From: a virus
Length of the DNA: 64,000 nucleotides
Direction: 5' to 3' (one strand)
IMG/VR virus record: IMGVR_UViG_3300028646_000003
Location: 1 to 64,000 of that record
Shown: positions 565-17,439 of the stretch, one piece after another
Position numbering within the stretch: position 1 is the first letter of the stretch
Layout: every line of letters starts with the position of its first letter
Notes under the pieces: model-generated
Told to the model about the DNA's origin: nothing
Seen by the model: only the letters and a program-made list of their open reading frames with translations
Databases searched by the model: none
Position numbers and translations under genes: made by a program

Positions 565-617
565 TACATTAATTTATTAAAATAGTTGTTGACAGTAGGA
601 AGATTTAGGTATAGAAT
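565..617 (+). promoter_or_regulatory. Sigma-A-like promoter with upstream conserved box
   Basis: TTGACA (589-594), a 17-base spacer, then TAGAAT (612-617). Upstream lies TACATTAATTT (565-575), the reverse complement of the box found before other promoters in this window. The same inverted box and spacing recur at 39889-39941. It would drive the omega RNA and iscB. Confidence 0.7.
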
Positions 618-786
618 AATAAATGTACCAAGTAACAAAAAAACTTATTAAAGATAAATGATAATAAATTAATATGATAAAGATAGAAAGGAGAAATTAA
701 ATAAAAAGTATGTTGTCAGTAACCTTACATATTTAATGTGTAAATTAATTTAGAAATAAATGAAATTTATGCTGTCTAGCCTAAGA

Positions 787-960
787 TTTGAAATATGATC
801 TACGTTAAATATAATATCACACCATAAAATGATACCCTAGTTTTATGCAACTGTGTAGGCTCTGTAAACAGTTCTATGAGGTAGGAACAGTCAACCTAGA
901 TTGGAAGTTTAACTTCAAATTATATTTAACATTGGCGAAGGGTAAATAAACTCTAAGGAG
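787..960 (+). ncRNA. Putative omega RNA (HEARO-type) of the IscB element
   Basis: The 170 bases before the iscB-like gene form a structured region. A perfect 12-base stem pairs 804-815 with 919-930. Inside it are hairpins from ATAAAA/TTTTAT (about 834-857), CTG/CAG and GTTC/GAAC arms (about 866-890), and GAAGTT/AACTTC (about 904-916). CCTAG and TAGG segments can pair across the domain, as expected for a pseudoknotted scaffold. IscB omega RNAs are encoded directly upstream of the gene with the guide at the 5' end, so the guide would lie just left of 804. The left boundary is inferred. No covariance model could be run. Confidence 0.65.
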
Positions 961-969
961 GGACGAAAC

Positions 970-2220
970 TTGAGAGTATTCGTTAAAAATTTAAGAGGAC
1001 AAAACTTAATGCCTTGTTCTCAGAGAAAAGCAAGATTATTATTAAAACAGAATAAAGCAAAGATATATTCTTATAATCCTTTTAGTATACAATTATTAAA
1101 ACAAACAGGCGAATCAATACAAGAATGTAATATAGGTATAAATACTGGATATAGATATATGGGATTTGCAATAACAAGTAGCAATAAAGTTTTAATTAAA
1201 GGAGAAATAGAATTAAGGAACAATATAAAAGAGTTGTTATTTTCTAGAAAAGAATACCGAAGAACTCGTAGAAGTAGAAAAACTAGATATAGACAAGCGA
1301 GATGGAAAAATAGAGCAAGAAAGATAGGATGGTTAGCACCTTCTATACAATCAAAAATAGATAATGAAATATTCTGGGTTAATAAATTAAAATATTTATT
1401 ACCTAATTATAATTTAATAGTTGGCATTGGGAAATTTGATACTCAAAGACTTATAAATCCAGATGTGGATAATAAACATGGTGATTTGTACGGATATGAA
1501 AATGTAAAAGCTTATTTAATAACTAGAGAAAATAATAAATGTCAAATATGTGGGAAAACATATGATGGTTTAGGTTGGAGAATACATCATAAAAAAGAAA
1601 GGAATAAGGGAGGAAGTAATAGAGTTGAAAACTTAGCACTAGTACATGAACAATGTCATAAAGATTTTCATGCAGGGCTAATAAAAAAGAAATTTAGAAA
1701 ACCTAAAGAATATAAAGAGACAACATTTATGAATATATTAAAACAACGAATCATAAGTATATTAAATTGCACTGTTACTTATGGTTATATAACTAAAATT
1801 GATAGACAAAATTTAAAGTTAGACAAGTCTCAGTATAATGATGCGATAGCAATAAGTGGAATAAAAGAAATTAAAGAAAATTGCAATGACATATTATATA
1901 TAAAACAAGCTAGAAAGAAAAAGAGAAGTTTACATGAAGGAACGGCTAGAAAAGGGAGAAAAGAACCTAATAGGCAATCCAAAAGAAATTCTAAGAATAC
2001 TAAATGTTCTCATGGATTTTATTTAAACGATAAAGTTGAAGTGTTTGGTAAAGTTGGGTGGATAAGTGGGTTTGCTGGATATGAATGTTACATAAAAGAT
2101 ATAAGTGATAATTATATAGTTACCCAAAATAAAGCTGGGAAAGGCGTATCTCTTAAACTTTTAAAACTTATAAATCATAATAACAATTGGAAATATACAT
2201 ATAAACAAATTAATATATAA
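970..2220 (+). CDS. iscB: IscB-like RNA-guided nuclease with RuvC catalytic residues lost and HNH intact
   Basis: 416 aa, TTG start with GGAGGG seven bases upstream. The N-terminus (KARLLLKQNKAKI) matches the PLMP/RRXRR start of IscB proteins, followed by the Arg-rich bridge YRRTRRSRKTRYRQAR (about 96-111). The HNH domain sits inside the RuvC fold: CQIC (191-194), RIHH (204-207), N221 and CH (229-230). The C-terminus (NDKVEVFGKVGWISGF...) matches the target-interaction domain. In RuvC-I the expected GxDxG reads GINTG, so Asp is Asn58. RuvC-II reads IVGIGKFDTQ, so the expected Glu is Gly152. RuvC-III reads KSQYNDA, so His is Gln288 while Asp291 remains. The family cuts the non-target strand with RuvC and the target strand with HNH, so this protein should only nick. 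It is a stand-alone gene without transposon ends, more like a homing endonuclease than a transposon accessory. Confidence 0.88.
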   Translation: MRVFVKNLRGQNLMPCSQRKARLLLKQNKAKIYSYNPFSIQLLKQTGESIQECNIGINTGYRYMGFAITSSNKVLIKGEIELRNNIKELLFSRKEYRRTRRSRKTRYRQARWKNRARKIGWLAPSIQSKIDNEIFWVNKLKYLLPNYNLIVGIGKFDTQRLINPDVDNKHGDLYGYENVKAYLITRENNKCQICGKTYDGLGWRIHHKKERNKGGSNRVENLALVHEQCHKDFHAGLIKKKFRKPKEYKETTFMNILKQRIISILNCTVTYGYITKIDRQNLKLDKSQYNDAIAISGIKEIKENCNDILYIKQARKKKRSLHEGTARKGRKEPNRQSKRNSKNTKCSHGFYLNDKVEVFGKVGWISGFAGYECYIKDISDNYIVTQNKAGKGVSLKLLKLINHNNNWKYTYKQINI

Positions 2221-5514: not shown

Positions 5515-5534
5515 CTTATAAAGAGGTGAGTAAT

Positions 5535-6725
5535 ATGAAAAGATTGACGTTAGAAGATATAAAAATAAGATTATATAATAAAAATAAAAATATAGCTATT
5601 CTTGATGATGTGTATATAAACTGTGATAGTGAATTATCTTGTAAGTGTTTGATTCATAATAATATATGGACTACAACTTGGACTAATCTCAATACTGGAT
5701 ATGGATGCCCAATATGTGCTACAGAGAATAAAATAAATACTCGTAGAAAAAATGCTGTAAAAAATAAAAAATCATTTGCAGATATATATCCACATTTTGT
5801 TAAGTATTTTAAAAACAAAGAAGATGCATACAAATACTCATATGGTTCTCATAAAAAAACTATCATTAAATGCGATATTTGTGGAAAAGAAAAAGAAGTA
5901 ACTATTAAAAGTGTACCAATAAATAGTATTTGCTCTTTTTGTAATGATTTTATTCCTTATACAGAGAAGTTTGTATTTAATCTATTAGAACAATTAGGAA
6001 TTGACTTTGATTTTCATAAAACTTTTGATTGGTCTCAAAACAAAGAATATGATTTTTATATACCTGATTTAAATATTTTAATAGAAGCGAATGGACTTCA
6101 GCATTATGAGGAAAGCTTTATTTCCATTAAAGGAGCAAGGAGTTTAAAAGAAGAAATAGAGAATGATAATTTAAAAGAATATTTAGCATTGCAGAATGGA
6201 ATATTAAAACAAAATTATATAACTATTGATTGTAGACATAGTACATTAGAACACATCAAAAATAGCATATTGAACAATGAAAAAATAACAAGTAAATTTG
6301 ATTTGAGTAATATTGATTGGTTAAAATGTGGCGAGTTTGCATGTAGCAATTTAGTAATAACAATATGCAATTTATATAACAATAAACAAGTAAGTAATTC
6401 GGAATTTATTAAATTCATTCAAAATAAATTTAAAATAGCTTATAAAACAGTTTTAAAATACTTAAAATCTGGAACAGAGTCTAAAATATGTGACTATAAT
6501 CCCAAAGACTCTTATAGAAATAATTGGAAATCTAAAAAAGTTATATGTTTAGATAATATGAAAATTTATGAAAGCGTATCATTTTTAAATAACATTTTCT
6601 TAGATGAATTCGGAGTTGTTAGCACCATTAGTGGAATATCTCACGCTTGCCGAAATAAGAAAGAATATAAAAATTTAACTTTTTTGTATTTAGAAGATTA
6701 TTATAGCAGGGAGGAATTGATATGA
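5535..6725 (+). CDS. Vsr-like (EDxHD) putative homing endonuclease with zinc-finger repeats
   Basis: Start at ATG 5535; the in-frame GTG 5526 is part of the AGGTGA binding site. The N-terminal half has treble-clef-like Cys motifs: CPIC (near 60), CDIC (near 118) and CSFC (near 137). The nuclease region reads EYDFYIPDLNILIEANG followed by LQHY, the pattern of Vsr/very-short-patch-repair folds found in phage homing endonucleases of the I-Bth0305I type. The C-terminal third may be a DNA-recognition tail. It lies between two replication genes and is separated from the upstream one by a hairpin, as expected for a recent free-standing intruder. Confidence 0.72.
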   Translation: MKRLTLEDIKIRLYNKNKNIAILDDVYINCDSELSCKCLIHNNIWTTTWTNLNTGYGCPICATENKINTRRKNAVKNKKSFADIYPHFVKYFKNKEDAYKYSYGSHKKTIIKCDICGKEKEVTIKSVPINSICSFCNDFIPYTEKFVFNLLEQLGIDFDFHKTFDWSQNKEYDFYIPDLNILIEANGLQHYEESFISIKGARSLKEEIENDNLKEYLALQNGILKQNYITIDCRHSTLEHIKNSILNNEKITSKFDLSNIDWLKCGEFACSNLVITICNLYNNKQVSNSEFIKFIQNKFKIAYKTVLKYLKSGTESKICDYNPKDSYRNNWKSKKVICLDNMKIYESVSFLNNIFLDEFGVVSTISGISHACRNKKEYKNLTFLYLEDYYSREELI

Positions 6726-8708: not shown

Positions 8709-9782
8709 ATTAATGGTTATGAATTAAAACAGTATATAATAGAAAACAATAAAATTGAATATGTTTTAGAGGAAATAGGATGTACACACATTAAATCATA
8801 TACTAAAGAATATAGGTGTAAAACACCAACACATGATAATTCTACATCTACATCTATAAAAAAAGAATCTCTTTCAATAACTATTTATGGAAAAGATGAT
8901 AAAATAACAGGGGATATATACACTTTAGTTATGGATATTAAATCTTTAATATTTCCTAAAGCTGTTAAATATATACATGAAATATTAGGATTAAAATACT
9001 ATGGAATAAATACTAAATCAGAAACCAAAGAAAAAGTTGATATATTAAAAGTATTTAAAAAGGCACTTAAAAAATATAAAGATTATTATGACGAAGAATT
9101 AAAAGTATTAAGTGAAGATATAACTAAAGAGTATGAACAAATGCCATATATAGAATGGGTTAAAGAAGGAATACTTCCTTGTACTCAACAAACATTCGGA
9201 ATAGGATATAGTGCTAAAAGCAATAGGGTAGTTATACCTCATAGATATTGGTGTGGAAATGAAAATGATTATGTAGGACTTATAGGAAGAACCTTAATTA
9301 AAAATTACGATATGTTTGATATACCGAAGTATTTTCCATTATATAAATATCCTAAAAGTCAAAATCTATATGGATTACAAGAGAATTATAAAGGAATACA
9401 AGAAAAGGGATATACAGTTGTATATGAAAGCGAAAAGTCTACACTTAAACGCCATAGTAAAAAAGACTATACAGGAGTATCATTGTTTGGTCATGAATTA
9501 TCTATAGAACAAGCAAAGATACTTATAAGCCTAAATGTAGATATAATAATTGCTTTAGATAAAGATATTTCTTTAGATTTTGTAAGAAGTATATGTGAAA
9601 TGTTTTATGGAATCAGAAATGTATACTATATTTATGATGAATATGGATTGTTAGGAGAAAAAGAAAGTCCAGCAGACAAACATGAAAAAATCTATAAAGT
9701 GTTATTCAATCGAAAAGTCAAATATAACGAAAATGAACATGAAGAATATTTAAAATACTTAGAATCAAAGGAGATTAAATAA
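8709..9782 (+). CDS. DnaG-like primase, apparent ATT start
   Basis: 357 aa from ATT 8709. A Cys/His set near the N-terminus (GCTHIKS...RCKTPTHD) resembles the primase zinc-binding domain. The TOPRIM fold shows VVYESEKST near 236 (catalytic Glu) and IIIALDKD near 277 (DxD). It synthesises RNA primers for the DnaE polymerase. The AGGTGAT at 8698-8704 is a strong Shine-Dalgarno sequence placed for ATT 8709. The only upstream in-frame alternative, GTG 8700, lies inside that sequence and has no site of its own. The gene ends one base into the ATG of the next. Confidence 0.75.
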   Translation: MNGYELKQYIIENNKIEYVLEEIGCTHIKSYTKEYRCKTPTHDNSTSTSIKKESLSITIYGKDDKITGDIYTLVMDIKSLIFPKAVKYIHEILGLKYYGINTKSETKEKVDILKVFKKALKKYKDYYDEELKVLSEDITKEYEQMPYIEWVKEGILPCTQQTFGIGYSAKSNRVVIPHRYWCGNENDYVGLIGRTLIKNYDMFDIPKYFPLYKYPKSQNLYGLQENYKGIQEKGYTVVYESEKSTLKRHSKKDYTGVSLFGHELSIEQAKILISLNVDIIIALDKDISLDFVRSICEMFYGIRNVYYIYDEYGLLGEKESPADKHEKIYKVLFNRKVKYNENEHEEYLKYLESKEIK

Positions 9783-10807
9783 TGGGTTATTACAAGGAAG
9801 ATAAATTTAATTATTATATTAAAATAATTAAAGATAATAATTCAGATATAAAACTATTTAATAATTCAAAAGACACTTTAACCTTTGAAGAATATAAAGG
9901 CGTAAAATCTTATTATTATATAAAGTGTGATATTTGTGGAACATATGTTAGGAAAACATTAGATAATACTGTTAACAATAAATGTTATACATGTAACGAT
10001 TGTGCTAGTAAGATAACAGGAGATAAAAATAAATTATCATTTAAAAAAGCCATAAAAAGAGTTGAGTTATTAAAATCTGAAATAAGATTAGATCTATCTC
10101 ATTCTATAGTAGAAAAAGAATGGAATAAAGTTATAGATAAATATTGGTTTAAATGTACAAAGTGTGGTCAATGGATGTTTAGAGAATATAGATTATTTGT
10201 TGATAAGGGTGGAAATATTTGTGGAGATTGTGGTGGACAAACCTCATGGGATATAGTTTCTGCCAAAACCAAAATAAAAGAATTAGGAAGTGAATTAATA
10301 AATGATGAATGGTTGGGAGTTGACCATAGATATATGTTTAGATGTATTAAATGTGGTGGTTTAACCAATAAAACTTTTGATAAATTTGTTAATAGCAATC
10401 AGCGTTTATGTAATTCATGTTCTGGATCAAAAGGAGAAATTATTATACAAAAGACATTAGAAGAACATAACATTAAATTTATTCCACAATATAGATTCGA
10501 TGATTTAAGAGGTGAGAATAAACAATTTTTAAAATTTGATTTTGGTATTTTGGATTATAATGATAAATTAAAAAATCTAATAGAATATCAAGGTGAGCAA
10601 CATTATTTTCCAGTAGATTTTGCAAATAGAGGTGAAGAATGGGCTAAGGAGCAATTTCAAAAAAATCAATATAGAGATAATATGAAAAGAGAATATGTAT
10701 CAATTAAAAATATAGAACTATTAGAAATTCCATACTGGGATTACAATAATATAAAAAAGATATTAGGAGGTTTATTATGGGAGAAAGAAAATCAAAAGAG
10801 TATTTAA
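9782..10807 (+). CDS. Vsr-like (EDxHD) putative homing endonuclease, 341 aa
   Basis: Several Cys pairs form treble-clef or zinc-ribbon repeats: CDIC, CNDC, CTKC, CGDC, CIKC and CNSC. The nuclease core is GSKGEIIIQKTLEEH followed by FDFGILDYND and LIEYQGEQHYF. This Glu...Asp...Glu-x-x-Gly-x-Gln-His pattern belongs to Vsr-like nucleases. Its architecture parallels the protein at 5535. It lies between primase and RecB-like nuclease and overlaps the next gene by 31 bases, so its 3' end carries the ribosome binding site of that gene. Confidence 0.72.
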   Translation: MGYYKEDKFNYYIKIIKDNNSDIKLFNNSKDTLTFEEYKGVKSYYYIKCDICGTYVRKTLDNTVNNKCYTCNDCASKITGDKNKLSFKKAIKRVELLKSEIRLDLSHSIVEKEWNKVIDKYWFKCTKCGQWMFREYRLFVDKGGNICGDCGGQTSWDIVSAKTKIKELGSELINDEWLGVDHRYMFRCIKCGGLTNKTFDKFVNSNQRLCNSCSGSKGEIIIQKTLEEHNIKFIPQYRFDDLRGENKQFLKFDFGILDYNDKLKNLIEYQGEQHYFPVDFANRGEEWAKEQFQKNQYRDNMKREYVSIKNIELLEIPYWDYNNIKKILGGLLWEKENQKSI

Positions 10808-12021: not shown

Positions 12022-12783
12022 ATGAGAAAAACTAATAGAATTGGAGAAAATAGTATAAATAAACAAGGATTAAAAATGAAAATAATTGAATATAGAAGGA
12101 ATGATGATATTACAGTAAAGTTTGAAGATGATTATGCTTGCGAAAGCCAATATGTACTTTTTCAAAAAGGTTCTATTAAGAATCCTTACTTTAGAGAAAC
12201 ACAAGGAGTTGGATATATAGGAGAAGGCAAATATAAACCAAGTATTAATAATAAATTAACTATTCAATATAAATATTGGATGTCTATGTTTTATAGGTGT
12301 TATAACGAAGACTATCATAAAAAAGAAAATACTTATATAGATTGTTTTGTTTGCGAAGAGTGGCATAATTATCAATCATTTGGAAAATGGTTTGATGAAA
12401 ATTACTATGAAATAGAAAATGAAGTTATGCAAATAGACAAAGACATACTAATTAAGGGAAATAAAATATATAGTCCAAAGAATTGTGTATTTGTTCCTAG
12501 ATCAATAAATAATTTATTTGTAAAAAACGATAAAGTTAGAGGAAAATATCCTATTGGTGTTACTGAAAGAAACAATGGATATCAAGCAAGATTAAATAAA
12601 AATACAAAAGACATCAAACTAAGAATAAGCTTAGGTGTTTTTGATACTCCACAACAAGCATTTAATGCTTATAAAATAGCTAAAGAGAATTATATTAAAA
12701 AAGTTGCTAATGATTATAAGGGCAAAATACCAAACAATTTATATAATGCAATGATAAATTATAAAGTTGAAATGACAGATTAA
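12022..12783 (+). CDS. HNH-like homing endonuclease with AP2-type DNA-binding domain
   Basis: 253 aa. The middle part (DKDILIKGNKIYSPKNC followed by FVPRSINNLF) matches the phage HNH-like family found beside AP2 domains. The C-terminus (IGVTERNNGYQARL then LGVFDTPQQAFNAY) is a clear AP2/ERF-like DNA-binding domain. It is a free-standing gene between the RecB-like nuclease and the polymerase, typical of an intron-less homing gene. Confidence 0.72.
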   Translation: MRKTNRIGENSINKQGLKMKIIEYRRNDDITVKFEDDYACESQYVLFQKGSIKNPYFRETQGVGYIGEGKYKPSINNKLTIQYKYWMSMFYRCYNEDYHKKENTYIDCFVCEEWHNYQSFGKWFDENYYEIENEVMQIDKDILIKGNKIYSPKNCVFVPRSINNLFVKNDKVRGKYPIGVTERNNGYQARLNKNTKDIKLRISLGVFDTPQQAFNAYKIAKENYIKKVANDYKGKIPNNLYNAMINYKVEMTD

Positions 12784-12814: not shown

Positions 12815-14095
12815 ATGGAAGAAAACTACATTGTACATCATTTACATGATGACACATCTAACTGTAATGGATATGCTGATTCATGTACTAAATATGAAGA
12901 ATATATTAAATTAGCAAAAAAATGTGGAATGAAAGCAATAGCATTCAGTAATCATGGTGGTATATATGATTGGATTAAAAAGAAACAATACTGTGATAAA
13001 AATGGAATTAAATATATACATGGAGTTGAATTGTATTTATGTATTAATCTTCAGGACAATACTAGAGGATATCATATAGGATTGTATGGAAAGAATTGGG
13101 AAGGAGTTAAAGAACTAAATACTCTTATGTCAATGGCGACTTCAAAAGGAGTAAAAGAGGATAAATCAGATAGACACATGTATTATAATCCTAGAATATC
13201 ATTTGAAGAACTCATGAATACAAGTGATAATATTATAATTACTACTGCTTGTTTAGCTTCTCCACTATGTAAATTAGGCAATAAAGATATATTAAATGAC
13301 GTAGAAGGTAATGAAACCGAAGAAGGTAGAAAACAATATGAATATAATTTACAAAAAAGAGATGAATTATTACAATGGTTATCTAAACACAATGATAGAT
13401 GTTTTTTAGAGATTCAATATCATAATTGTAATAGTCAAATAGAATTTAATAGTCAATTATATGAATGGTCTAAATTATATAATATACCACTAATAAGTGG
13501 AACAGATACTCATTCATCTAATAAATATAAAGCCGAATGTAGAACAGTTTTACAAAAAGCTAAAGATAGTTTTTATGGAGAAGAAGATGAGTTTGATTTA
13601 ATATGGAAAACATATGATGAATTAGTAGAATCATTTAAAATACAAAATTCCTTACCATTAGAAGTTGTACTTGAAGCAATTAATAATACAAATGTTTTAT
13701 CTAATATGGTAGAAGAGTTTACATTAGATAAAACATTTAAATACCCAAATTTATATGGTAATAATTCAAAATTATTATGGAAAAATAGAATATTTAAAAT
13801 GTTAAAAGATAAAAAGGAACGCAATATTATAGATGTTTCTAAATTAGAAGAATACAAAAAAGCAATATTAGAAGAATTTGATGTAATGTCTAAGTTAGGA
13901 ATGGAAAGTTTTATGATGTTTATGTCAGAACTTATGGAGTGGGCTAGAAATAGTGATATACATTCTAGCCCATGTAGGGGAAGCGTAGGAGGAAGCATTA
14001 TAGCATATATAACTGATATAATTACTGTAGATCCTATTAAGTGGCACACAGTATTTTCAAGATTTTGTAATGCAGATAGAATAAGTCTTGGTGAT
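12815..14095 (+). CDS. dnaE: DNA polymerase III alpha (DnaE type), exon 1
   Basis: 427 codons. It begins with a PHP domain (VHHLHDDTSNCNGYADS, near 7-23) and continues to GRGSVGGS-like SPCRGSVGGS near 389. It ends ADRISLGD at the first catalytic Asp. Joined to the second exon this gives SLGD-IDEDF, equivalent to the PDFDIDF active-site motif of DnaE enzymes, and a complete protein of 1121 aa. The reading frame runs directly into TAA at 14096-14098 within the intron, so unspliced RNA yields only this N-terminal piece. It is the replicative polymerase of the phage. Confidence 0.88.
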
Positions 14096-15354
14096 TAAAA
14101 TAACAAAATAGTTCTAAATAATAAATAAATATGATATAATAAATTAAAATAAAGGAGGTGAGAATTATGAATCAAGAGTATAAAATGAAAATTTCCAAGG
14201 AAACAATTATTGATATATATTATAATGAATATATTAATGGGACTTCTGCTTTAAAATTAGAAGAAAAATATGAATTAAGTAAAGGATATTTATATAGATG
14301 GTTTAATAAACTTGATTTACCCTTAAGAGATAATAGTGTTAATTCTAAACAATACAGTTTTAATGAAAACTACTTTGAAAACATAGATACCGAAGATAAA
14401 GCATATTGGTTAGGTTTTGTATATGCTGATGGCTTTATAACATCTAAAAGAAAACACGCTAATAGAAGTTTAGGAATTTCTTTAGGTATTAAAGACGAAA
14501 GTCATTTGCAAAAACTAAATTATTGTTTAAATAGCAATACACCAGTAAATAAATATATAGAAACTGCTGGATTTGGGATAGGAAATAAATATTGTAGAGT
14601 TATATATGTAAGTAAGAAATTAACAAATGATTTAATAAAACATGGTGTATATGAAAATAAAACTGATATAATAACATCTCCTAATACAATTCCTTATAAA
14701 TATATAAAAGATTTTATTAGAGGATATTTCGACGGAGACGGAAGTATTTGGAAACAAGATAGTAATACACAAGTAAATATTGGTTTCGTTGGAACTAATG
14801 ACTTGTTGCAGTTTATTATGAAGTATTTATTAGATAATAATGCTATATTAAGAGAATATCCTTTGAATAAAAGAAAATCTGAACAAATAGTTAGTAATTT
14901 TAAATTTGGTGGAAATTATAATTCGTTTAGATTTTTAGATTTTATATACAAGGACTCAAATATTTATTTAAATAGAAAGTATCATATTTATTTAGAATTA
15001 AAAGAACACATTGATAGTCACCCTATACAGTAATGTATAGTATAAAAAATTCGGTGAACTTATAAGTATAAGGTGTATAATCAACGAATAGTAATGCTAG
15101 GAAATGAGTATTAATGATTATGCTAACAGGGGAAGCCTTAACGTAAAGACGATGGTAATCCTGTGCCAAGCTTGTAGAGAAATCTACTTGAAGGTCAAAC
15201 GACTAAAATGAGTTGGAATACAACTCTAAGAGGATTAAAGCATGGTGAAAGTCCAAATCCGTAGTGCCGAACTCCTATTTATATAGGATGAAGATATAGT
15301 CTACTCCGACTCTTAATTGAGTGTTAAAGTATTAGGAAACTAACGGTATCAAGG
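14096..15354 (+). other. Group I intron in dnaE, 1259 bases
   Basis: The upstream exon ends in U (GGTGAT) and the intron ends in G (ATCAAGG), as group I introns require. P1 can form between exon GGTGAT (14090-14095) and GTCACC (15017-15022) with a terminal G-U pair. P2 is CTATAC/GTATAG (15023-15028 with 15035-15040). P7 is GACTA (15201-15205) with TAGTC (15297-15301), within a typical AAGATATAGTC context. The whole endonuclease gene lies in the P1 loop and its last codons overlap P1 and P2. Splicing restores the polymerase active site. Confidence 0.85.
14167..15033 (+). CDS. LAGLIDADG-type homing endonuclease inside the dnaE intron
   Basis: 288 aa from ATG 14167 with AAAGGAGGTGAG upstream; the in-frame GTG 14158 belongs to that site. 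Two LAGLIDADG-like helices are visible: YWLGFVYADGF near 78 and FIRGYFDGDGS near 180. An N-terminal helix-turn-helix-like segment (ALKLEEKYELSKGYLYRWF) precedes them. It should cleave intron-less dnaE alleles at the splice junction and so spread the intron. Its 3' end is constrained by the ribozyme because it encodes P1 and part of P2. Confidence 0.82.
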   Translation: MNQEYKMKISKETIIDIYYNEYINGTSALKLEEKYELSKGYLYRWFNKLDLPLRDNSVNSKQYSFNENYFENIDTEDKAYWLGFVYADGFITSKRKHANRSLGISLGIKDESHLQKLNYCLNSNTPVNKYIETAGFGIGNKYCRVIYVSKKLTNDLIKHGVYENKTDIITSPNTIPYKYIKDFIRGYFDGDGSIWKQDSNTQVNIGFVGTNDLLQFIMKYLLDNNAILREYPLNKRKSEQIVSNFKFGGNYNSFRFLDFIYKDSNIYLNRKYHIYLELKEHIDSHPIQ

Positions 15355-17439
15355 ATTGATGAAGACTTTGCTCCAAAAGATAGAATAAAAGTATATAAGT
15401 ATATCATAGAAAGATTTGGAAATAAGAATGTATCATATATATTATCACTTAGTACTATTCAAGATAGAGGTAGTATTGATGTATTAGCCAAAGGATTAAA
15501 TTATAAAGACTTAGATTTAGTTAAACAGATTAAAAATGAATTTGATAATATCTTCGATGAGTATTCTAAAATAATACAAGAAGAAGTTAACTTGGAAGAA
15601 TTAGACAACGCAACTTCTAAATCACCTAATTTTGATGATTACAAATTATATATAAATGTAATTAGAAATAAAGAAAAGTTAAAAAGAGTTAAAGAATTAA
15701 AAACGTTATGGGATACATTAAGAGAAGATAATAAAGAATTATTCTATTACTTTGATGGAATAAAAGGAACAGTTATAGCCAAAGGAAATCATCCTTCTGG
15801 AATGATAGGTAGTCCAATAACTCTATTTGATAATATGGGTGTATTTTATAAAGGAGGAGATGAAGATTTTCCTGTTTCATTTTGTGCTATGAAGGCAGTA
15901 GATTCATTGAATTATGTAAAGTTTGATATATTAGGACTGAAAACTATAGGTGTAATTCAAGATACATATAAATTATTAAATAAAAAATGGGAAGAAGCAC
16001 ATGAAATTAATTGGGACGATGATAATGTGTGGAGTGATATGTTAATTAGTAATGCTGGAATATTTCAATTCGAAGGAGATTATGCATTTGATTTATTATC
16101 TAAATTTAAACCACATGCAATAAACGATATGTCATTAGTAAATGCAAGTCTTAGACCATCAGGAAAGTCTTATAGAAATAGATTAATTAGTGGGGAATTT
16201 AATAAAAATCCATCTGAAATAATAGATAAGTTATTAGAGGCTAATAAAGGATTTTTGGTATTTCAAGAAGATTCGATTGCATTTTTACAAGAAATATGTG
16301 GCTTTAGTGGTTCTTTAGCCGATACTACAAGAAGAGCTATAGGAAAAAAAGACTTAGAATTACTAAAAGAACAACTCCCAAAAATATTAGAAGGTTATTG
16401 TAATAAATCAGATCAACCAAGAGAAATAGCTGAAAAAGAAGCAAAACAGTTTATACAAATAATTTCAGATTCCTCGGAATATCAATTTGGATATAATCAT
16501 AGCACAGGATATTCAATGAATGGTTATATGTGTGCAAGACTAAGATATTATTATCCATTAGAGTATACTACTGCATATTTAAATAATGCTGAAGACCAAG
16601 CTGATATAGATAATGGAATAGCCCTTGCTAAAGCTAAAAATATAAATATACAAAATCCTAAGTTTAGATATTCTAAAGGTGAATACATGTGTGATAAAGA
16701 AACAAATACAATTTATAAAGGTGTTGGATCAATTAAATATTTAAATGAAACATGTGCAAATCAATTATATGAATTAAAAAACAATGCCTATAATACTTTT
16801 ATAGATTTATTAAAAGATATAAAAGAAAAAGTAGATATAAATTCAAGACAATTAACAGCTTTGATTTTATTAGATTATTTTACCGAATTCGGTAAATCTA
16901 AAAAGTTATTAGAAGTATATAACAAATACACTGATTTAAGTAGCAGAAAACAATTCAAAAAAGTTGATTTAATAACAATGGGACTAACAGAGGATATTAT
17001 AAAAAGATATGCTAAAAAAGAAACAGAAAAGATATTTAAAGAAGTTGATGTTGAATCTTTGATAAATGAACTCATAGAAAATATAGAAAACAAAGACGTA
17101 CCTTTAAAAGAAAAAATATCTGCCGAAATAGAGTATTTGGGATATCCGATAACAAAAGTAGAAAATGATAGTTTATATTATGTTATAAAAATAGATGAAT
17201 TTAAAAATAAGAAGTCAATAACAAGATATCTAACAATGTACGATTTACATACAAATGATTTAATAAAATATAAACTATCTGATTTCTTATATTTTTATGA
17301 TAATCCAATTGAGGAAAAGGATATTGTGCAAATAACTAGTGAATCTAAAAAGCCTAAAAAGCATAAAGATGATAACGGAAATTGGAAAGTTGTGCCTAAT
17401 GAATTTAATCTTTGTATAGACTCATGGGTATGTTATTAA
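15355..17439 (+). CDS. dnaE: DNA polymerase III alpha (DnaE type), exon 2
   Basis: 694 codons plus stop, opening with IDEDFAPKDR, which supplies the second and third acidic residues of the catalytic motif. Typical DnaE landmarks follow: VKFDILGLKTIGVIQDT, a FQFEGDYAFDLL segment and FGYNHSTGYSMNGYMCARL. The C-terminal 200 residues are less conserved and may hold the OB and partner-binding region. No separate initiation codon is needed because the exon is joined by splicing. Confidence 0.85.
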   Translation: MDEDFAPKDRIKVYKYIIERFGNKNVSYILSLSTIQDRGSIDVLAKGLNYKDLDLVKQIKNEFDNIFDEYSKIIQEEVNLEELDNATSKSPNFDDYKLYINVIRNKEKLKRVKELKTLWDTLREDNKELFYYFDGIKGTVIAKGNHPSGMIGSPITLFDNMGVFYKGGDEDFPVSFCAMKAVDSLNYVKFDILGLKTIGVIQDTYKLLNKKWEEAHEINWDDDNVWSDMLISNAGIFQFEGDYAFDLLSKFKPHAINDMSLVNASLRPSGKSYRNRLISGEFNKNPSEIIDKLLEANKGFLVFQEDSIAFLQEICGFSGSLADTTRRAIGKKDLELLKEQLPKILEGYCNKSDQPREIAEKEAKQFIQIISDSSEYQFGYNHSTGYSMNGYMCARLRYYYPLEYTTAYLNNAEDQADIDNGIALAKAKNINIQNPKFRYSKGEYMCDKETNTIYKGVGSIKYLNETCANQLYELKNNAYNTFIDLLKDIKEKVDINSRQLTALILLDYFTEFGKSKKLLEVYNKYTDLSSRKQFKKVDLITMGLTEDIIKRYAKKETEKIFKEVDVESLINELIENIENKDVPLKEKISAEIEYLGYPITKVENDSLYYVIKIDEFKNKKSITRYLTMYDLHTNDLIKYKLSDFLYFYDNPIEEKDIVQITSESKKPKKHKDDNGNWKVVPNEFNLCIDSWVCY

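Follow-up and report, generated by a model that had tools for sequence, protein, structure and literature searches.

What would a phage do with an IscB that keeps only one of its two nuclease active sites? IscBs are RNA-guided DNA-cutting proteins related to the ancestor of Cas9, and the question is raised by a 416-amino acid IscB encoded on the plus strand (iscB, positions 970-2220) of a 64,000-nucleotide stretch of viral DNA, hereafter the window, which is the first 64 kb of the 130-kb IMG/VR virus record IMGVR_UViG_3300028646_000003. Three of the four RuvC catalytic residues of this protein are replaced, its HNH residues are present, and an exact match to the putative guide of its omega RNA is found in sibling phages without the gene. 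With a confidence that stays a little under one half, we propose that the phage has adopted an IscB with a dead RuvC and a kept HNH as an RNA-guided target-strand nickase for homing or inter-phage competition.

RuvC and HNH active sites of the phage IscB

Family models, sequence matches to solved IscB structures and an AlphaFold model all identified the protein as an IscB. The NF040563 guided_IscB model scored 296 bits (cut-off 175), the RRXRR domain matched with an E-value of 1.6e-52 and the Pfam HNH domain with 4.2e-9; judged by sequence, chance can be dismissed as an explanation for the family assignment. The AlphaFold model (predicted local distance difference test, pLDDT, 85.5) gave IscB structure 8csz as its best Foldseek match (E 2.8e-26); single-sequence folding reached a pLDDT of 33, and that model was unusable. 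The domains run in the order PLMP/N-terminal, RuvC-I, arginine-rich bridge, RuvC-II, HNH, RuvC-III and target-interaction domain (TID). Translation starts at a TTG preceded by the ribosome site AAGGAGG. A preliminary description of this DNA had placed the start at 787, a position that falls within the omega RNA (715-950), and the open reading frame (ORF) is instead 970-2220.

The catalytic residues of OgeuIscB are D61, E193, H340 and D343 in RuvC and H247 in HNH (PMC9640706), and in a phmmer alignment to the OgeuIscB structure 7xht these pair with N58, G152, Q288, D291 and H207 of the phage protein. The catalytic Asp of RuvC-I is Asn58 (AAT, 1141-1143), the catalytic Glu of RuvC-II is Gly152 (GGC, 1423-1425) and the catalytic His of RuvC-III is Gln288 (CAG, 1831-1833), and the fourth residue, Asp291 (GAT, 1840-1842), is kept; all four codons are on the plus strand and were placed by alignment, the three replaced ones against relatives as well as structures. 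The HNH core (residues 191-234, plus strand 1540-1671, Pfam HNH) sits between RuvC-II and RuvC-III and contains C191, C194, H206, H207, N221, H226, C229 and H230. Codons and alignment thus confirm what had been read from the letters alone, namely the three RuvC replacements and the retention of His206/His207, Asn221, His230 and the Cys pair. Sequencing error is an unlikely cause of the three losses, which would take four or more base changes in a 416-codon frame that is otherwise open. The protein is an IscB by descent, but because its RuvC catalytic set is incomplete it would not be a two-strand nuclease, and RNA-guided double-strand cleavage is predicted to be absent.

We consider it very improbable that RuvC is still active through other residues that supply the active site. 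D291 is retained, which would favor such an arrangement, but when the protein was aligned with the solved IscBs and with 129 relatives surveyed from plasmids, phages, viral contigs and GTDB genomes, the three motifs showed no gap, shift or new acidic substitute. Asn, Gly and Gln are also not expected to replace the metal-binding Asp/Glu or the His of RNase H-fold nucleases.

The D/E/H/D set is kept in nearly all of the 129 relatives, including the closest one, L117, which is 62% identical to the phage IscB and is joined with it in the tree with full support. Homologues with the same three changes, which the preliminary description had suggested looking for, do not occur among the 129; scans of viral and genome contigs with peptide patterns taken from the phage IscB alone did not detect a close relative, and alignment queries were needed. 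At 79 conserved columns, defined as those kept in at least 95% of the clade's RuvC-intact members, the phage IscB departs six times (D58N, E152G, H288Q, F112W, I166V and G168N), and three of these six departures fall on the four catalytic columns (hypergeometric p=0.001). None of the conserved columns is changed in HNH (0/8), in the N-terminal domain or in the TID. Targeted loss of RuvC, as first suspected, is supported by this clustering on catalytic residues and by RuvC losses in at least three further lineages.

Omega RNA, guide and sibling phages

An omega RNA scaffold (HEARO, RF02033) lies on the plus strand at 715-950 (Rfam 90.1 bits against a gathering threshold of 83, E 5.9e-17) and has a consensus fold with covariation. 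The omega RNA of L117 scores 85.8 bits, so the phage RNA is no more degraded than that of its RuvC-intact sister, and the earlier view of a stand-alone phage gene with an intact omega RNA holds up. Related mobile copies have a crisp left end that corresponds to GTCA at 715; as these copies begin exactly at GTCAA, with the first base of HEARO, the putative guide is the 16 nucleotides before 715, AAATAAAAAGTATGTT (699-714, plus strand), directly 5' of the scaffold. A likely promoter for omega RNA and iscB, TTGACA-17-TAGAAT (589-617, plus strand), is a consensus match only (11/12), and its hexamers are identical in the IscB-less sibling L039. A distant blastn search with the leader and omega RNA gave no match among named phages.

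Two sibling contigs from different metagenomes, L039 and L040, are ~85-92% identical to the window downstream and lack iscB in the same intergenic region. Within that region the guide is matched exactly, at L039:4861-4876 and L040:911-926; the two contigs are identical there and therefore count as one allele. An exact match arose in 0 of 20000 Markov shuffles of the intergenic region. The 130-kb carrier record has no self-target with fewer than three mismatches, its next best sites (three mismatches) are as frequent as for a reversed control, and the ~123-bp L039 segment holding the match is absent from it. A scan for the guide followed by GTCA within 8 nucleotides gave 14 stretches, of which only those in L039 and L040 belong to kin of the carrier; the other 12 are in unrelated phages without IscB and were taken as coincidence.

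The cassette (~683-2206) is flanked by two plus-strand copies of an intergenic repeat of the phage, AAATTAATATATAAAG: an imperfect left copy at 663-682, which forms the left edge, and a right copy at 2207-2222, which overlaps the iscB stop and occupies the position of the transposon right-end hairpin of most relatives. In the comparison with L039 and L040 the edge of the cassette is offset from the matching site. Simple insertion at the target does not account for the join, and we assume later recombination through the repeats. Besides the copy at 2207, the repeat occurs at 2462, 3041, 21192 and 44195 and as ~30 imperfect matches in the window, with a TTGACA promoter box after some of the copies; it seems to mark the borders of exchangeable gene cassettes. 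Downstream of iscB, before the next gene, there is a structured-looking untranslated stretch (2304-2445), partly common to L039, with a terminator-like hairpin at 2413-2432.

Starting from the residues, omega RNA, guide match and absence of a self-target that are directly observed in the sequence, we infer that the phage's own promoter would transcribe omega RNA and iscB, that a ribonucleoprotein would assemble and bind a site complementary to the 16-nucleotide guide, and that HNH would nick the target strand only, which in L039 is the minus strand and the template strand of the downstream gene. A target-strand nick is what a protein with an inactive RuvC and an intact HNH is expected to produce, and because the carrier is without the matching segment it would be spared and the sibling addressed. 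Such a nick would act in one of two ways: as the trigger for copying the cassette into the sibling (nick-driven homing), or as a handicap to the sibling in co-infection. Phage HNH endonucleases nick and drive homing (PMC3428280), and a phage HNH nicking enzyme handicaps a co-infecting phage (PMC11620839).

Several results weigh against this proposal. The right ends of related mobile copies read approximately NTTRAA (CTTAAA in L117), which by IscB logic would be the target-adjacent motif of the clade, and the TTATGT that follows the L039 site does not fit it. Combined with the change of the TID motif YKQ to GKG, at a motif less strictly kept than the 79 conserved columns, this flank indicates that recognition may have changed or disappeared: the phage IscB may read another flanking motif, or the guide match may be a mere relic of a former insertion site of the element. 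The misfit is the chief reason why our confidence in the nickase proposal stays below one half, and it leaves the homing element of the preliminary description in a divided position, favored by the exact guide match in siblings without iscB and disfavored by the flank. In addition, the phage IscB has an end branch of 0.54 compared with 0.27 for L117, a relative-rate count of 36 to 21 (p 0.06) and extra changes relative to L117 in HNH and TID as well, and its lineage is known from one sequence only.

The longer branch and the relative-rate count make some relaxation of selection on the phage IscB likely. Carried further, they would fit a decaying gene, under relaxed selection after loss of its mobile ends, which lost RuvC first and has no current function; the extra HNH and TID changes, the altered YKQ motif, the missing right end and the single known sequence point the same way. 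However, the 416-codon frame, start, ribosome site, promoter and omega RNA are all intact, the losses are concentrated on catalytic residues, the pairwise ratio of nonsynonymous to synonymous substitution rates (dN/dS) against L117 is 0.31, and a separate RuvC-dead lineage has been preserved across two species. We consider decay a less likely account of the locus than nicking.

RuvC loss in other IscBs

In Metabacillus fastidiosus (L087) the four RuvC positions are H, Q, Y and D (D58H, E152Q, H288Y), in two Sporosarcina species (L085 and L088) they are K, E, L and D or E, and in a Desulfobacterales metagenome-assembled genome (L094) N, K, H and N, each time with HNH intact. A viral relative, L134, has changed RuvC residues (E, E, Y, N) and a deleted HNH and keeps its ORF and omega RNA; HEARO RNA is kept by all of these RuvC-dead IscBs. 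On the tree the six RuvC-dead rows need five changes, at least four of them forced by well supported branches, and by this sequence-based reconstruction RuvC-dead, HNH-intact IscBs arose separately in Sporosarcina, Metabacillus and the Desulfobacterales genome. The transposon right end is missing in most RuvC-dead cases; the association of RuvC loss with a missing right-end hairpin (Fisher p 0.03) is suggestive only, as the rows are related and the motif is crude. The Metabacillus gene (L087:353-1914) lies directly upstream of a methyl-accepting chemotaxis protein gene, the Sporosarcina loci (L085:2224-3775 and L088:2222-3775) have the same downstream genes in both species, and at L134:4755-6023 a helix-turn-helix, repressor-like gene is found upstream of the IscB.

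The Sporosarcina pair has a dN/dS of 0.19, and its guides share 17 of 18 bases, with 7 shared among the next 18 bases upstream. The low ratio, a sign of purifying selection, and the conserved guide indicate that at least one RuvC-dead IscB is maintained. In one of the species the guide is similar to sequence at the start of an accessory flagellin gene (L151:1501), a target that we rated weak: the main flagellins are unmatched, there is no target in the second species, and the site lacks the flanking motif. By an estimate from counts, about one match with two mismatches is expected by chance per such genome.

These relatives bear on a different explanation, in which a RuvC-dead IscB would act as an RNA-guided DNA-binding regulator that blocks transcription at a leader or promoter, with HNH serving folding or target locking and not cutting. 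L134, having lost HNH along with its RuvC residues, is possibly a nuclease-free regulator of this kind, and the missing transposon right ends and the single Sporosarcina guide in two species, with its flagellin-start match in one, are consistent with such a role. So are the position of the sibling match, in a leader upstream of a gene, and the parallel with TldR, a nuclease-dead TnpB (PMC13418256). Against this, the HNH catalytic and zinc residues are untouched in the phage protein and in three other RuvC-dead lineages, and, judged by sequence, with these residues intact the phage IscB would not have lost all nuclease activity as TldR has. The carrier genome also has no target, and the flagellin match has neither the expected flanking motif nor a counterpart in the second species. 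We consider a regulatory role of the phage IscB less likely than nicking.

As a guarded possibility, RuvC-dead, HNH-intact IscBs may form a recurrent class, with ~4 origins in phages and bacteria, of domesticated target-strand nickases or regulators, in which the phage form would be an RNA-guided nicking-homing counterpart programmed against siblings.

Phage setting and relation to known systems

The 130-kb record encodes DNA polymerase, topoisomerase II, helicase, primase and integrase, and it has further homing-type endonuclease genes that are missing from siblings. ORFs 5526-6725, 9782-10804 and 12022-12783, two of which are of the HNH homing type, are absent from the otherwise collinear L039 and L181. 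A LAGLIDADG-type endonuclease ORF (14158-15033) separates the two parts (12815-14098 and 15592-17439) of a split DNA polymerase gene. Positions 15276-15359, probably a group I intron, resemble sequence in or next to the terminase genes of Twort-like Staphylococcus phages; Rfam gave no intron match.

The phage protein resembles IscB of the OMEGA systems (OgeuIscB, TbaIscB; NF040563) in domain order, fold, HNH, bridge helix, TID and an omega RNA just upstream, and differs from it in the three replaced RuvC residues, the absence of a transposon right-end hairpin, and the phage promoter and repeat at the cassette edges. IsrB, the OMEGA nickase, is a single-nuclease relative and its mirror image, with RuvC present and HNH absent, and nicks the other strand. 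One IscB with an inactivated RuvC and an active HNH is already known, and was suggested to be a nickase (PMC10910872); compared by description, it shares the dead RuvC and intact HNH of the phage protein, but it accompanies an inactive Cas12 and a helix-turn-helix protein, whereas no TnpB/Cas12f-type protein (PF07282) was found in the 130-kb phage record. A phage-encoded type II-C Cas9 likewise has an inactivated RuvC and an active HNH and has been proposed to act as an anti-CRISPR by capturing host crRNAs (PMC10910872); unlike it, the phage IscB has its own omega RNA. With TldR, too, phages have co-opted a transposon-derived RNA-guided nuclease that lost RuvC, but TldR belongs to the TnpB lineage and lacks HNH (PMC13418256), whereas here HNH is intact and no target was found in the carrier. 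I-HmuI, I-BasI, I-PfoP3I and PhiPA3 gp210 are phage HNH enzymes that nick an intron-less allele or a rival phage; they read DNA by protein, whereas the phage IscB would find its target by an RNA guide. More than 16% of HEARO fragments are likely viral (PMC9755519). As far as we searched the literature, a stand-alone phage case with a guide match in siblings is new, as is the evidence that RuvC was lost repeatedly.

If nicking is true, this IscB would be a compact (416-amino acid), natural RNA-guided target-strand nickase, with a strand preference that is wanted for base editors and has so far been obtained by mutating IscB or Cas9. For phages, it would mean that programmable, RNA-guided homing or interference competition is in use, and for the IscB family, that RuvC loss would be a repeated route out of transposons, parallel to that of TldR from TnpB.
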